From: Sinohyriopsis cumingii
Lineage: Eukaryota; Mollusca; Bivalvia; Unionida; Unionidae
Length of the DNA stretch: 64,000 nucleotides
NCBI GenBank assembly: GCA_028554795.2
Contig: CM068838.1
Coordinates: forward strand, 127,817,428-127,881,427
Direction: 5' to 3'
The notes under the pieces were generated by a model. It had not been told where the DNA came from, ran no database searches, and worked only from the letters and a program-made list of their open reading frames with translations. Within the stretch, counting starts at the first letter, position 1, and each line of letters begins with the position of its first letter. Below, piece by piece: positions 5,276 to 64,000 of this stretch. The position numbers and the translations under genes are program-made.

Positions 5276-7172
5276 ATAAATAAGTTTCATTTTATTTTGC
5301 ACTATGCTGAATATCCATTAAAGACATTAGAATATAGTTCAGGAACTAGAGTGTCTTGAATGGTTAATACATTTAATATTGTGCTCATTGTGTTTTTGAA
5401 ATTTGCAAGTCTTTTGATTGTGTTATAGAAATTGCGTCAGTGTGTTTGTTGTTTTTTAGTTGCTTCGGTCGTTACGATCGTTACCTTGATACATCCTTAT
5501 TGCGCAGTCTACGCAAAAATTGTTGTTTAGCGACTTCCCTGTACATACACAAGAGGGTATTACACATTTAATAGAATGAGTCGTACTAGTGGACAAACTG
5601 ATAATTGTGAAAAACAGTACATGGCGTTCTCGTACTATTATTGTACCCCGTGATGGTCATGCAAATTATATAGACTACTGCAAGGTATGCTCATTGTATT
5701 TTAGTACACCCTAGACGCGATGGTAATAACAATTTTAGTACAGTAGTGCTCACGATCTCGCGTAGATATTACTGAAATACATATTGTAGTCAGATGGGTA
5801 TTTTAGGTCGCTTAATTCAGGATCTAATTATAGTGAAGGGCTGGAAAGTCCCTTTCTAAAACAGAGCGTGATATACGTGAAGAATAAACTGAAGAGGTTA
5901 TTTAGCCTGAAGCGCGGTGCAGGTAAGTACGAGTCCTAGCAGTTCTAGGTTATTACTTAATTAATAGATTAATTAATTTTTTAATTATCGAAATAGTCTG
6001 GTGCACCTTTAGGATTTAAAAAAAGAAAAGTTTATAAATGATCTCAATTAATGCAGAGAAATATATAACAACCAGAATTATGTGTCTGTAAAACAAGTAT
6101 CTCCGCGCTGTCCAGCTTTGACCTGAACAGCTTAGTTAAGAACTGTTCCAAGGGTAAATATGTTTTTCATGTCTAGTAAGTAATAAGTATATACACTGTT
6201 ATATTGCAATAATTTCCAAATTATGTCCAAGGTATTATGTTTCCTCGGCTTGGGGAAATGATGACCCCCCCCCCCCAGCCAAGGTGAGTAACTCGAATGC
6301 GTATCTAATTATTGCTTACGGAGTGAAAACCCCCTTATCTAAAAATAGCAAAGTTTTATTAAATAGATACATGTACATGAACTTTCATCGGTCTTACTTC
6401 TGGTAAGCACAAATCACAAACTTGAATTTCCTATTGTTTCTAAAATATACGATTACAGTTTAACCTGTATGTACCATTCTGATTGAAAAACACTGCTATA
6501 CTTCAATACCATTATGTATCTATAAAATAGTATGCGATATACTTCCAAAACGAGACAGAGTATATCTTCCAAAGTACGGAATACATTATATTATTTTTAA
6601 AATGTAATCAAGGCAGATTAAAGGTGTTGTTTTAATTCATTTTCTTCCTTTTATATACACGTTCAGAAATGAAGAAAACTGTTTTTTAAGTTTTTTTTGA
6701 CACATGGGTGACCTTTCTATGTGTCTTTCTAGGAAGAGTGAACACACACACACAGACAAAGACACACGCTCGTACGCTCAACCTCCCATCCGCTAAATGC
6801 ATACATTCATACAAATATTAATAACCAGATGTTCTGATCCAAGAGAAAACTATTCAAAGAGGACAAAATTCACACAGATTATCAAATCTGAATCTGGTTG
6901 TTTATATAAGATCCAAATAACCTCGTGTACGTACTCTTGCTAGGTCAACGAGTACTGACTTCATCTTTCTCAGTTTTATTGAGACGTTTGTATTTTACTG
7001 AATGCGTCTGCAGAGATATAACCAAGGACATTGATATATATTACCAAGGTTAAAACCTTTTGTTGTAAAATTTTGTTGCAAGGTTTAAATACATATGTTT
7101 TGATTGACAGATTATTATCCAGTGATGAACTGCTAGTCGACATTGAAAATGACATCATTACAGCATGTACCA

Positions 7173-53862: not shown

Positions 53863-55805
<1,943 letters not shown>

Positions 55806-56685
55806 CTGTAGAGAATGGAAGAAAGTATTTAAGTGATACAAAATTTGTATAAACACAGTATATAACTATATGAAGCCTTATTGTCCAAATCATTTGTAAT
55901 GTTTGCGGATATAAAGGAATTGTTCGACGTGGCCAATTGATTTTCATATTGCTAAGCATCCACAGATCAAAACGGGTTCGTCTACAAAAAACTAAAAATA
56001 TCCTTTCAGTGAAAACTAAAACCGACTCAACCATTCCTCAAAGCCCACGCACTTGAAAGATGACGTGGATGACGATGATAATAAAGCAGCCAACACATAA
56101 CCCACGTTGAACGTGAATTTAAGTAAACGTCAACGCTACCGAGGCTTACCAATCGAGACGAACTGACAAGTCTTGTTTTAGGTAAAAGCTAAATCTTCTC
56201 ACATTGGAGCCTTTGTGTTTCTTAGGTTTCAATTATTATACCAGGAGTTAAAAGCACGGAAACATTATCATTCTATCTCTCCTAATGTTTTCAGTGAAGC
56301 AGTACTTCCATTTCATTTCCGCTACCAATGCACACAGGTGCCATTAAACGTTAATTCCGAAAGCGAAAATACTTCATACGTATGTGAACGAAAAGACAAG
56401 CGGTGCAAAGAGTTGTAGGGTTCATATCTGACGATACATAAAGAGTTTCTTCATATATCTGTCACATTTTGGATTTATTAAACTCCCCACGGAAAAGAAA
56501 GAAACATTTAATTGCATATGAAGTGTCAATGACCAAATATTATTGTCTTGCCCATGCCTCCATTTGTATGTAGCTTTAACTACTATGCGAAAACAGTACA
56601 ACACAGCACTCATTCATGTCCTGAAACTAATTTGGAACTTTTCACCCAATGCACATGAAAGATTTTTTTAGTCTAACAGTATGTA

Positions 56686-59019: not shown

Positions 59020-61075
59020 AAGACACGTAAACGCTACTAAAATGTGATTATCCATCCAACGAAATCTATCATCATATAAAGATCAGAGTCAATCCGGAAA
59101 ATATCTTTAAAAATGAACGCTAAATAAATTCTTTGTTGTCCACGGGACCCATTTGTTTGATTAAGCGACTGTATCGTGAAGTCCACTACTTTCGATTTCA
59201 ATTAGGTAACATATATCGAAATGACTTCATACAAATTGTTTAAGCAGAGACATTTTGCTTTGTCAAAACCCGTTTCTATAGTTGAACACACATTACATTG
59301 GATATATATATGGTCAAATTGTTTTCCTCATCTAAGACTGACTCGTGATCTAACTGTAATACCTGCCGCCATTGTAACCGCTGAAGTGGAATGATGGGGC
59401 GTGTTTGATTCGATTCATCTCTGTATCGGAGTGTTCTTTGTAACCAGTGTCTCTGGATCAGAAACAGGATACACAAACTAGCAAAGGCGATTATTGAGAT
59501 GGTAGATGACAAAGATGCCGTTGAATGTAATTAATGTTTGAGTTAATGTGCAATTCTACTATTAATCAAATTCAACACGTACCTTTGGCAACTTCAAGGA
59601 TGTTACATACGCACAAATTGGTAATTAGATTGGTACGAATATATTGAAATTTATGTCATTCATAAATGAATCTTTTCTTTTATCACTTGATATGAATTAC
59701 AAAATATGGAATATATATTGGATTTGATGTGCTTTTACGAAATTCTTCTTCACACACTCGATGAAATAAAATGACGACAATTTCATTTTTAGTTGTGTGA
59801 CTTAATATGCCATATATTTTTAAGTACGTCCGAGATTTTGTATCATTGGGTGAGAATCGTTGCAGTAACAACGAACATTGGGCACTGGCAAAGTACACAG
59901 TATGGTCGATATTGACCTGACAGGTGATAAGCATGTACCTCCTATTGTGTTCTGCACGAAGCATGCCACTGTCCCATAATGGGTTTGATGTCAAGGAGAG
60001 TTTTTTGTGCAGTTTCATTCCACGTATATTGCAAATGATAACATATGCCCATTATTGTGCTAACTGATTTCATCTTATGGAATTTTGAAATCAGAAACAA
60101 TTTACTGCAGGGAGGTTTTAGCTTTTATATCTTCTCTTTCATTACCTTCAATGTTAATATAACTAGGCAAACAACAATGAAAGATACGTGTTTTCTGTAC
60201 AGTCCACTTACTCTAGGATTTAGGATATTATTTGACTTACAAATGTAAAGCTTTCCAATTTTTGCGGGGTTGGGGTTGGGTTTTTGTGTGTTTTGGGGGT
60301 GTTTTTTAATTATAAAAAAACGAAAAACGAAAGCAAAATCGACATGAAGCTGTATTCAATCCTGCTGGCCATAAGTATAAATATGGTAAAAATCCTGATT
60401 GTCGAGTGTTTTGTGTTTCTGTCAGAAACTATATTTTTCCCAGATTCCACAGCTGGAACGGTTTGCTTTCGATCAAGCTTGTTGCACACAGCAAAAGGTA
60501 TTTCTTTGGTGAACATCAGAATATTTCGCCAGTGTTATTAATGGAGTATTTTGCTAAACGTTTTTCATTTCACATCGGGAAAGCATATCTCCACATAAAA
60601 GATACATTATTCATTATACAATCGAAATCAGTTTGTACGTGGTTTTATTAAACCTTATGGTCCTACAGATCTATCAAGACCCTAAAAGTTTTCAGGATAG
60701 CTTTATTTGTCTGGTAATCTTTTGGTCAATTCTGAATAATAACATAAATAAAAATAACTCAGTTTACTACAGTGCGAATCTTAAGCCAACTGAAACATGA
60801 TATAGAGTGCAAATTTCAAACCCGTACTTTATTGTTTCACTTCGACTCTGTCTTTAATTAAGTTTACTTAACTTACGGTCTTTTGATTCATCCAAAATGT
60901 TTCTCCCTCCATTTTTCTTGTTTGCACTCTTTCATGGTTGTGTTGAATAAATGATTCAAGTAAAAATTAAATAAAAGGCACACATAATTTTTTTTTATAA
61001 AAAAGCCAGGCCACTGCATTTAAAGTTTACTTAAGATTTATGTTGAGTTGGTTTGTATGTAAATAATAGTAGTTA
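59020..61075. other. Intergenic, no supported gene
   Basis: A minus-strand open frame (59276-59530) encodes a possible membrane span followed by basic residues. It has a stop just upstream and no acceptor, so it is not called. A plus-strand frame at 60343-60541 begins with a signal-peptide-like stretch, without further support. Confidence 0.5.
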
Positions 61076-61079
61076 ATAG

Positions 61080-61310
61080 GGGCACCCTAGGGACAATGGG
61101 AATTACCATTACAGACACCCCTGGGCAAATCTGGGGACTATGTAAATTTAACATGGAGAAAAATCGTGGGCAACTCTAGGGACAAGGGGAATTAGCATTA
61201 CATGGGAATAGAGTTTGGGTCTGTCTAGGGACAAGGGAAATTGAACATGGTCAATAGAGTTTGGGTCTGTCTAGGGACAAGGGGAATTGAATATGGGATT
61301 TTTTTTTTTT
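61080..61310 (+). repeat. ~46-bp degenerate tandem repeats at the edge of the virus-like block
   Basis: About five units share AGGGACAAGGGGAATT and GAGTTTGGGTCTGTCT pieces. The array ends in a T-run about 60 bases before the first gene's 3' signals. It may be part of the terminal region of the element that follows; the other end is outside the window. Confidence 0.6.
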
Positions 61311-61348
61311 AAATATTTTTTTAATAAAAGGGGGTAGGCAATGGAAAG

Positions 61349-61390
61349 TCATTCTCTTTTCGAGAAATATGGGTGGCCCTGAAAAGGGCC
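61349..61390 (-). terminator. Histone-type 3' stem-loop and downstream element (minus strand)
   Basis: On the minus strand AAA precedes GGCCCTTTTCAGGGCC (61375-61390), then ACCCA. This is an exact fit to the metazoan histone mRNA stem-loop: a 6-bp stem, TTTC loop and AAA/ACCCA flanks. About 10 bases on is CTCGAAAAGAGA (61354-61365), resembling the purine-rich histone downstream element bound by U7 snRNA. It lies 25 bases after the stop of the 76-aa minus-strand gene. Confidence 0.85.
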
Positions 61391-61414
61391 TTTGGGTTTA
61401 TGTTAATGTATCCA

Positions 61415-61645
61415 TTAACATAAAGGGTATTTGTGGCATCTTCTTGTCCTCAAGCTGCGTCTTACTCGAGGGCCATAAATTAGTGTTCTCTTGAGGCAAC
61501 CTTGTCTTTCCACGTACACTCTTCGTATCCACAGACTTGTGTCTGACTTGTCGACAATGGTCCACTTGGACCGGACATACATGAGCATGTCCGTCCTAAA
61601 CATCATGGAAGACACAAGGGTGGATGATTCGACTGTGGTCCACAT
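61415..61645 (-). CDS. Small basic protein of the virus-like element (76 aa), unknown function
   Basis: The frame starts at ATG 61645, about 50 bases downstream of a minus-strand TATA box (61690-61697), and ends at 61415. A histone-type stem-loop follows within 25 bases. The product is rich in R/K, especially after residue 40 (RRVYVER and VRRSLRTRR). It has no recognisable domain, signal peptide or membrane span. It is not a histone by sequence. It is called because promoter, start, stop and 3' processing signals are all correctly spaced. It is divergent from the gene at 61865. It could be a DNA-binding or virion-associated protein, but that is a guess from charge only. Confidence 0.5.
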   Translation of the reverse strand: MWTTVESSTLVSSMMFRTDMLMYVRSKWTIVDKSDTSLWIRRVYVERQGCLKRTLIYGPRVRRSLRTRRCHKYPLC

Positions 61646-61864
61646 CTTGAAGCGACGAGAACAGGTGAATCAATGCAGTGAACTGCGCTTATTTATAGGT
61701 AGAGGAAGGATTGAAACGGATTGAGTTCATTCACCAATCCGAACACGCGTTACAAAATTCAGTCAGCCCGCATGCAATCCGAAGAGAGCAGTCTGTGACG
61801 TCACATAGTCTATATAGATTCGCTAGCGCTTGTGTGCAGTCAATCTATGCGACAGTGATTCAAC
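61646..61864. promoter_or_regulatory. Divergent promoter with two TATA boxes
   Basis: About 220 bases between two start codons. The minus-strand TATAAATA is at 61690-61697, and the plus-strand TATATAG at 61811-61817 is 54 bases before its ATG. Both distances fit short 5' untranslated regions. The block includes TGACGTCA (61796-61803), a perfect CRE/ATF palindrome. Confidence 0.65.
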
Positions 61865-62442
61865 ATGACGGAAACTCAGAAAACGATCCATTGGGGTGCA
61901 TCAGCAGGGGAGACTGCCCAAGGGAACCCGGACTTACTTTCAGAAGAGGTACATTGGGATTTTGTGGATTTTCTTACCTCGCAAGAATTTGTTCCGGAAC
62001 CTTCGTTACCGTCTTCATCACCGCAAGTGGAGAATTTTAGACAGAGACAGAAAGAAGAATTGGAGAAATTTATACAACGACAAAAGGAAGCGGAACAAGC
62101 TTTTCTCCTACAGCTGCAGCAAGAAGAAGAGGTAAGAAAAAAAAAAAACAACAGCAACAACAGCAAGAAGAAGTAGCAGCAAAGAAACAAGAGGGTGAAA
62201 ATCAAACGGTCACGGTACTGTTGGACATTTTAGCGGAGTTAAGAAGTCTGAAACAAATGTATCAGACTTCTTTATTACGACGGAAGAGAATACGACCTTC
62301 CCGAGCTAAACACGTTAACCCTGTGACTAAGCCTACCGTACCACCCTTAGTGATTTCAACCCAATCATCATCAACATTACGCAGTCCAGAAGTAGGCCTT
62401 GGTCGTGGCAAAGGCTTACGGCAGTTAAAGTTGATTGCTTGA
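61865..62442 (+). pseudogene. Q/E-rich coiled-coil protein of the virus-like element, frameshifted at an A-run
   Basis: ATG 61865 follows a TATA box by 54 bases. The first frame gives an acidic N-terminus and a coiled-coil-like stretch (FRQRQKEELEKF, QLQQEEE), and stops at 62176 just after a 12-A run (62137-62148). A second frame continues without stop from the run to 62442: more Gln/Glu, a LLDILAELRSLKQMY helix, a basic RRKRIRPSRAKH segment and a Pro/Ser-rich tail. A histone stem-loop follows 26 bases after that second stop, so the whole span looks like one gene of about 190 codons. The break could be a sequencing indel, true decay or programmed slippage. GAGGTAAG at the same spot also resembles a splice donor. 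Product unknown. Confidence 0.55.
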
Positions 62443-62459
62443 ACTCACCCCTGCACCAA

Positions 62460-62507
62460 AATAAAAAGGCCCTTTTCAGGGCCACCCACGTCTCTCGAAA
62501 AGAGATA
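62460..62507 (+). terminator. Histone-type 3' stem-loop and downstream element (plus strand)
   Basis: AATAAAAAGG leads into GGCCCTTTTCAGGGCC (62468-62483) and ACCCA (62484-62488), identical to the histone mRNA stem-loop consensus. CTCTCGAAAAGAGATAG (62491-62507) follows. Stem, loop and the CTCGAAAAGAGA core match the minus-strand copy at 61349-61390 exactly. Confidence 0.85.
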
Positions 62508-62654
62508 GCCTTTCAATTTGCCAAAAACTCAAAAAAACAAAAACAAAAAAACCAACGCATTTTACCCCCTATAGTACGTGTCTTTGTATGAGTGCGTGAG
62601 TGTACGTTCTTATTTTAAAATCAAAACTCAAAGACACTTACCTTATATAATTAA

Positions 62655-62660
62655 TTTATT
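62655..62660 (-). terminator. Poly(A) signal of the zinc-knuckle gene
   Basis: AATAAA on the minus strand, 85 bases after the stop at 62745. Unlike its two neighbours, this gene has no histone stem-loop. Confidence 0.55.
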
Positions 62661-62744
62661 CTTTTATCCATTGTTACAATCCAATTCACAATTCACAACA
62701 CAACACTTTAATAAAAAGTTCATTGACTTCTTCTTTCTCCTTGT

Positions 62745-63191
62745 TTAGTCTCTCTGTTTTTTGAATTTCTTCACCGTCACACTCTTTTCTTCTTCTTCCT
62801 CCTCGCTTTCTTCCCTTCTTTTCTTCTCCTGTTTCTTTTTCTTCACCTGTCTGCTTTCTTCCTCTGAAGAATCCCTCTCTTCTTCTGAAGAATTCCTCTT
62901 TTCTTCTGACTCCTCTTGTTTCCTTTTTGGGCAATCTGGAGACCAATGTCCTTTTTCTTGACAATAATAACAGGTATCTTTACTTTTGTCTTTTTTAGTC
63001 CCTGTTTTTTTTCTTTTTTGACGGTCTGGACACTCTGAAGACCAATGCCCTTTCTTCTGACAGATATAGCAAGTATCTTGACTTTTATCTCGAAAGGAAG
63101 GAGAGTAGTCCGTGGGCTGGTCTGAAGAGAATTTTCTAATGACTCCTCGCAAAGCCCTGACGAAACGTTCGATTTGGCTAGTCTCTTCCAT
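62745..63191 (-). CDS. Acidic protein with two CCHC zinc knuckles (148 aa), virus-like element
   Basis: ATG 63191 lies about 60 bases downstream of a strong TATA box (63245-63254). The frame stays open further upstream, but that would start before the promoter. Two zinc knuckles are complete: C41-x2-C44-x4-H49-x4-C54 and C74-x2-C77-x4-H82-x4-C87. Basic linkers (RQKRKK, KRK) follow each, and residues 88-148 are a highly charged Glu/Ser/Lys tail. Such knuckles bind single-stranded nucleic acid in retroviral Gag, CNBP and viral proteins. No gag core, protease or reverse transcriptase accompanies it. It is divergent from the polymerase-like gene at 63326 and convergent with the gene at 61865. Likely role: nucleic-acid packaging or regulation, inferred from the motif only. 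Confidence 0.7.
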   Translation of the reverse strand: MEETSQIERFVRALRGVIRKFSSDQPTDYSPSFRDKSQDTCYICQKKGHWSSECPDRQKRKKTGTKKDKSKDTCYYCQEKGHWSPDCPKRKQEESEEKRNSSEEERDSSEEESRQVKKKKQEKKRREESEEEEEEKSVTVKKFKKQRD

Positions 63192-63325
63192 CGTTGTGCT
63201 CAGCTTGAGAGTGAAATGAATAGTGAAAGGACAAGACATACACCCTTTTATATACACTGGTCTGCCATGACTATAAATTAGTCTATGGTGATTAAACTTG
63301 AGTCATTTGACGTTTTTCACTCAAG
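63192..63325. promoter_or_regulatory. Short divergent promoter with paired TATA boxes
   Basis: 134 bases between two start codons hold TATATAAAAG on the minus strand (63245-63254) and TATAAAT on the plus strand (63272-63278). The boxes are only 18 bases apart. The plus box is 54 bases before its ATG, the same distance as for the gene at 61865. Confidence 0.65.
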
Positions 63326-64000
63326 ATGAAACGATCCTATTCATTTGAGAAGAAAGAAGAAGAAGAAAGTAAGAGGCAGAAACGTGATCTATCGCCTCGT
63401 ACCAGGGCTGAAATCTTGGCACAAATTCATGCCAGTGATTTTGAAGAGGACATGAGTGAACCAGAATCCGAACCCTCTAAACCAAGTTCACCACCCTTAG
63501 TCAACCCTGAAAAATACTATTCCATTCGAGAGACGGAAAAGCGCTCCTCTAGAAAATTTAGAACCACGGCTTACAAATACACGGTGAAGTTTAAAGATTT
63601 CAAGGCTGAAGTGCCGTTAGAGAAAGCAGAAGTGTTTATCACTGGGGTGTGGGATTCTTTGCTCACCGCACTCAAGCGACAATGTCAACCCAAAGAAGAC
63701 GATCGCTTGAGACTTTCCATACAACACGACGGTTTGAAATCCCCTGTTTGGATCGAGTTTAGCAGACCCGCAGAACTAACCCCTTCCAAAGTCATGGACA
63801 AGATTCAACACGTACAACAATCTAATGATCAGTTTGACATCACCGATGGTAAAGCCACACTGGACATGACCCACGTCTCTCCTCCTCAAGGGACTGGACG
63901 CAAAAAGATGTTATTGGTGGACGACCTTCGCAACACCAAAACAAGTCTCGTCCGAATTAACAACCCTCAAGACCAGATGTGTTTAGCCCGTGTCATCGTG
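63326..64000 (+). CDS. N-terminal part of a Maverick/adintovirus-like DNA polymerase B protein (partial)
   Basis: Open for 225 codons from ATG 63326 and runs off the window. Residues 1-25 are charged with a KRQKR nuclear-localisation-like patch. An acidic, Pro/Ser-rich linker follows to about 60. A conserved-looking domain comes next (LRLSIQHDGLKSPVWIEF, SNDQF, MTHVSPPQGTGRK), then SLVRINNPQDQMCLARVIV. This series (LQH...L, QSNDQF, THV...P-G-GRK, then a hydrophobic-R-I-x-N-x-x-D-x-x-C-x-A-R-A/V-I-V segment) is what I know from the N-termini of protein-primed family B DNA polymerases in Maverick/Polinton and adintovirus-like elements. Exonuclease and polymerase motifs, if present, lie beyond 64000. 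It is an endogenous element copy and its integrity cannot be judged. Confidence 0.6.
   Translation, partial: MKRSYSFEKKEEEESKRQKRDLSPRTRAEILAQIHASDFEEDMSEPESEPSKPSSPPLVNPEKYYSIRETEKRSSRKFRTTAYKYTVKFKDFKAEVPLEKAEVFITGVWDSLLTALKRQCQPKEDDRLRLSIQHDGLKSPVWIEFSRPAELTPSKVMDKIQHVQQSNDQFDITDGKATLDMTHVSPPQGTGRKKMLLVDDLRNTKTSLVRINNPQDQMCLARVIV

Follow-up and report, generated by a model that had tools for sequence, protein, structure and literature searches.

In animals, the RNA hairpin in which replication-dependent histone messages end is, to our knowledge, otherwise reserved for histone genes. Here we describe two hairpins of this type, each followed by a histone-type downstream element, at the outer ends of a divergent pair of non-histone genes in a 64,000-nucleotide (nt) stretch of the genome of the bivalve Sinohyriopsis cumingii (GenBank assembly GCA_028554795.2, contig CM068838.1, positions 127,817,428 to 127,881,427 of the forward strand). 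This whole stretch is referred to as the window, and all positions are given in its own numbering. On the best reading of the locus, the window takes in the left-hand portion of a Maverick/polinton/adintovirus-like element, and the two-gene cassette sits near the end of that element.

Among described systems, the closest comparison is with replication-dependent histone genes. The locus resembles them in its hairpin and flanks, its U7-like downstream element, its very short 3′ untranslated regions (UTRs) and the lack of a visible intron, and in its divergent arrangement with TATA and CCAAT boxes. Unlike histone genes, it encodes proteins that are not histones, its genes probably belong to a virus-like element, and its histone-type RNA processing is a prediction. 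In PMC1924863 and PMC2781718, SLBP is described as binding the histone hairpin and the U7 small nuclear ribonucleoprotein (snRNP) as pairing with the downstream element, with the RNA cut between the two, and histone-gene expression is tied to S phase.

Mavericks, Polintons and adintoviruses share with the locus small accessory genes near the element end and, by comparison with PMC11071308, probably also a polymerase-like protein in which a terminal-protein-like domain is followed by a Cys-containing segment; in the present case the palm domain, a retrovirus-like (rve) integrase, a double jelly-roll major capsid protein and the other terminus would all be found beyond the window’s end. Within a related element class, the polinton-like viruses and virophages, section 16 of PMC12220804 counts six histone 3′ UTR stem-loops, of the same RF00032 type as those described here, without comment. 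Unlike the present case, that section states the number only, discusses neither genes nor hosts nor a mechanism, and reports none for cryptophyte elements. Xeno-class adomaviruses are a further animal DNA virus group linked to histones, as they have a histone-like “Histoid” gene according to PMC11071296; there the protein resembles histones, whereas at our locus the likeness lies in the mRNA 3′ end. A word search of PMC11071296 and PMC8097293 for “stem-loop” returned none. An earlier note on this DNA, made from its letters (the original prediction), knew of no described case of this kind. None was found described, and the statement needs amending for the one uncommented count in PMC12220804, the only related statement met with in a search of mostly open papers, so that an earlier account elsewhere is possible.

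Histone-type 3′ ends on a divergent gene pair

Two RF00032 hairpins are the only matches in the 64 kb that reach an Rfam gathering score, the curated cut-off that stands at 34 bits for this family. The minus-side match covers 61350-61395 (−; 40.8 bits, E = 1.4e-8) and the plus-side match 62463-62508 (+; 37.1 bits, E = 3.2e-7), which confirms the hairpin sequence and coordinates of the original prediction. The stem-loop proper, GGCCCTTTTCAGGGCC, lies at 61375-61390 (−) and 62468-62483 (+) and is recognized in both places by RF00032 and by folding. Both hairpins show the features of the family, a stem of 6 bp closed by a loop of 4 nt, with A-rich sequence on the 5′ side and ACCCA-type sequence on the 3′ side; at the minus gene the loop is TTTC and the flanks are CCAAA and ACCCA. 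Their folding z-scores are −3.17 and −2.94, with equally good folds in 0 and 1 of 200 shuffles. A 22-nt core, AAAGGCCCTTTTCAGGGCCACC, occurs twice in the window and in none of 100 shuffles, even when up to three mismatches are allowed, and a degenerate histone consensus finds these two sites only.

Downstream of each hairpin lies the same element, CTCGAAAAGAGA, which is similar to a U7 target or histone downstream element (HDE) and is found at 61353..61364 (−) and 62494..62505 (+), with 14 nt from the stem to the AAAAGAG motif in each case. As had been claimed, the two copies are identical. They are the only exact occurrences in the window, and when one mismatch is allowed the chance mean is 0.23, with two matches in 2 of 100 shuffles. 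We take AAAAGAG to be complementary to the U7 core. The downstream element also folds into a second small hairpin at both genes (62490-62506; 61352-61366) and might in this way mask or expose the U7 site. The outer 3′ ends as a whole (61340-61393 and 62465-62518) form a 54-nt inverted pair that is 87% complementary and reaches past the hairpin and downstream element, as if one end had been copied from the other. Besides both hairpins, the region 60900-64000 gave three chance-level matches and no U7 or other known RNA gene.

The original prediction described the gene ends as converging. This has to be reversed: the two genes diverge from a common promoter region and are transcribed away from each other, with one hairpin at each outer end. 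The minus gene occupies 61415..61645 (−; ATG 61643-61645, stop 61415-61417) in a frame that is unbroken in the window, and the plus gene occupies 61865..62442 (+; ATG 61865, stop 62440-62442), where the frame of the window copy changes at an A-run near 62137. The hairpins begin only 24 and 25 nt from the respective stops. Between the two start codons lie a TATA box for the minus gene (TATAAA within CCTATAAATAAG, 61692-61697, −), a CCAAT box in the promoter region common to both genes (61734..61738, +) and a TATA box for the plus gene (TATATAG, 61811..61817, +). Directly before the latter is a perfect palindrome, TGACGTCA (61796-61803, +), presumably a CRE/ATF-type site. This back-to-back TATA/CCAAT layout with outer hairpins is the one in which divergent histone pairs, such as H2A-H2B units, are arranged.

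That the genes themselves are not histone genes, as the original prediction stated, is borne out by Pfam, which finds no histone family in the frames scanned, and by tblastn with the four core histones, which finds no histone in the window (best E = 0.76). The minus product is a basic protein of 76 amino acids (aa) with a computed isoelectric point of 10.65. The plus product is 193-230 aa long in relatives that reach the N-terminus, and it has a basic stretch of the PKRKRPSR type and a conserved C-terminus of the GLGRGKG type. The model of the plus protein is a single long helix (mean predicted local distance difference test, pLDDT, 67.1; predicted template modeling score, pTM, 0.27), predicted at residues 53-136 of the relative P0016. 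No family reaches its curated Pfam cut-off in the frames of either gene or in five relatives (P0016, P0020, P0026, P0035 and P0036). PHROGs and NCBIfam give weak matches to unrelated families only, and none reaches an NCBIfam cut-off. Both proteins carry basic stretches and probably act in the nucleus, as regulators or DNA-binding factors required during S phase. An 81-aa frame at 61479-61724 (+) that looks faintly H2B-like by eye was also considered and set aside; it has one unrelated, weak Pfam match (E = 0.077) and no match among PDB sequences.

Hairpin traces in relatives of the pair

The proteins compared, P0001-P0036, comprise 15 of the polymerase type, the window’s own included, and 21 relatives of the gene pair. 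Nineteen of the latter are database relatives of the plus protein (E ≤ 1.5e-22, 63-96% identical) and two, P0035 and P0036, are relatives of the minus protein; both gene families are unnamed. All 21 come from short contigs of 523-2286 nt from several public sources. The closest plus relative, P0016, is encoded by one unbroken frame of 193 aa, as opposed to the frame change near 62137 in the window copy. P0030, of the plus type, and P0035, of the minus type, probably share one contig, since the contig given for each is 1455 nt long and their sources are the same. Upstream translations are compatible with the TATA boxes of the window, in P0026 for the plus box and in P0035 for the minus box (0 of 500 shuffles each); the same comparison with the shorter upstream piece of P0028 gives 1 of 500.

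The 3′ regions of the relatives were judged through their protein tails, as base compatibility under the best codon choice. Two of the 21, P0031 (plus) and P0036 (minus), read past the usual stop, and their tails read as translated hairpin. Compatibility of the P0031 tail with the plus 3′ end is 91.7% of bases and that of the P0036 tail with the minus 3′ end 86.7%, with 0 of 1000 shuffles as good in either case, the tail pieces having been chosen by eye after the resemblance was seen. When all 36 proteins were scanned without such a choice, at least 25 of 30 bases were compatible in P0031 and P0036 only, and in none of the reversed proteins. In P0031 the stretch made up of 3′ arm, ACCCA and downstream element is compatible throughout (30 of 30 bases). 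Read through these tails, a recognizable though imperfect hairpin lies behind the plus gene of P0031 and behind the minus gene of P0036, and it is therefore not a chance feature of one copy.

A candidate S-phase cassette

Signals, geometry and protein families of the pair, together with the imperfect hairpin in the two relatives, are direct observations. Building on them, we consider it likely that the element carries a histone-style divergent pair of non-histone genes, from which SLBP/U7 processing would give tail-less S-phase mRNAs. In the nucleus, host SLBP would bind the hairpins while the U7 snRNP would pair with the AAAAGAG element, and CPSF-73 would cleave a few nucleotides 3′ of the stem. 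The resulting mRNAs would have no poly(A), would be both produced and stable chiefly during S phase, and would be translated with SLBP. The gene pair would be expressed during host DNA replication, when the protein-primed polymerase of the element would act. The adjoining zinc-knuckle gene, by contrast, has an ordinary poly(A) signal of its own (AATAAA, 62655-62660, −) and no hairpin.

On balance we also favor a stronger version, in which the locus is a complete histone-style cassette, perhaps derived from a host histone pair, where the element’s own genes have replaced the histones; this would be the first known non-histone use of the SLBP/S-phase pathway. If true, a mobile or viral element would break the histone-only rule for this signal and would reveal a new way in which a virus can couple the timing of gene expression to replication of the host’s DNA. 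It would also explain the absence of such transcripts from poly(A)-selected RNA libraries, and the hairpin signal offers a search key for further elements. Taken as a whole, the interpretation put forward in the original prediction is partly supported.

Some observations weigh against this picture. One stem pair is lost in each of the two relatives with a readable 3′ end, the top pair in P0031 and the bottom pair in P0036, and the AAAAGAG downstream core is absent from P0036. In addition, fold support for the polymerase identity of the neighboring frame, described below, is weak.

Alternative explanations

It is possible, though unlikely, that the mRNAs are polyadenylated at AATAAA 62460-62465 (+) in the plus gene and, in the minus gene, at ATTAAA 61320-61325 (−) or farther downstream, with the hairpin merely stabilizing the RNA or ending transcription. 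The first signal lies immediately before the plus hairpin and the second downstream of the minus hairpin, in keeping with this proposal, as is the missing AAAAGAG core of P0036. In PMC1924863, C. elegans histone genes are described as carrying AATAAA too, but most C. elegans histone mRNAs are said there still to end at the hairpin. The minus strand, moreover, has no AATAAA from 61000 to the minus hairpin, and the AATAAA of the plus gene is not preserved in P0031. AATAAA is impossible at that position in P0031, so that in this relative the poly(A) signal is less well conserved than the hairpin.

We regard it as quite unlikely that both genes are host mussel genes and that the polymerase-like frame is an unrelated neighbor. 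The window holds only the N-terminal part of the polymerase-like protein, whose fold match is weak, which leaves room for this proposal. Against it stand the compact arrangement, with four frames packed into 2.6 kb, and the occurrence of the pair’s 21 relatives on short contigs from several public sources, as well as the five relatives named above that reach no Pfam cut-off. The polymerase-like frame is also repeated in Sinanodonta woodiana, since its three annotated relatives there are on contigs of two sizes.

A very unlikely alternative is that the hairpins are leftovers of a host histone pair, for instance a divergent H2A-H2B pair, in or beside which the element landed, and that they are inactive on the present genes. 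The divergent layout, the TATA and CCAAT boxes and the outer hairpins do match the arrangement of a histone pair. However, public assemblies contain relatives of the two genes that the hairpins enclose, the hairpin trails the plus gene in P0031 and the minus gene in P0036, and the stop-to-hairpin distance is short at both genes. The original prediction had itself named remnants of an inserted histone cluster as one outcome that would speak against it, and the tblastn search above found no histone similarity, and no such remnant, in the window. The element may have captured a histone regulatory frame long ago, which would be compatible with the histone-style cassette that we favor.

Finally, a chance or bacterial-type terminator origin of the hairpins is rejected. 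When the viral collection IMG/VR was scanned with the hairpin and AC(C/T)CA both required, one stretch was found, which lies within an open frame. The hairpin without its 3′ flank gave nine stretches, none of which reaches the RF00032 cut-off or continues with ACC; two of the nine are on one contig, the only one whose frames were inspected, and these are phage-like by eye. The 3′ arm followed by AAAGAG gave 27 stretches, and by a pairing count on the first match per strand all six pairs are kept in none of them. In a prokaryote genome collection (257 billion bases per the tool description), AAMGGCYCTTTTMAGRGCCACC, a slightly degenerate version of the core followed by ACC, has no matches. No relatives of the element’s proteins were found in IMG/VR, and for this reason absence from that collection says little.

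Two side observations come from these viral contigs. L002, L005 and L007 carry GGCCCTTTTCAGGGCC and, behind it, almost the same GATCTT-TTTGGTTG stretch. Since L002 and L005 both come from one contig with phage-like frames, GGCCCTTTTCAGGGCC-GATCTT-TTTGGTTG might be a terminator, or else a repeat, in that group of phages. Contig L010 contains two type II hammerhead ribozymes, at 13-80 and 5897-5960 (Rfam RF02276, 43.6 and 50 bits).

Neighboring frames

On the plus side, the cassette is followed by the zinc-knuckle open frame (62745..63302, −), which contains two CCHC knuckles (Pfam zf-CCHC, E = 8.1e-14), and then by the N-terminal part of a polymerase-like protein (63311..64000, +), whose frame ends at the window edge. 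We read this last frame as a putative protein-primed PolB N-terminus in which a terminal-protein-like domain precedes an MCLAR-type segment; the Cys-containing segment may be the vOTU domain described for Mavericks, Polintons and adintoviruses. The frame has 14 relatives, three of them annotated S. woodiana proteins. Fold searches with the model returned nothing at E ≤ 0.001 in viral models or the PDB. Among the 50 matches listed by the fold alignment program VIA-align, seven are named Y-family polymerases (eta, kappa, PolIV/DinB), and we take three further rows to be Y-family polymerases as well. All ten align over their own C-terminal part, the little-finger domain. PMC11071308 relates the little-finger domain to the polinton terminal-protein domain. 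The Maverick/adintovirus-like polymerase N-terminus of the original prediction can be retained, in that the neighbor resembles the N-terminus of a protein-primed polymerase, with the weakness of fold support noted above.

Outside the minus gene, a 46-bp tandem repeat of 2.6 copies (61175..61296, no strand assigned) is possibly part of the terminal region of the element, of which the window includes one end. Farther out, two frames at 54131-56037 (−) match BTB and BACK domains in Pfam and presumably represent a host gene adjoining the element.
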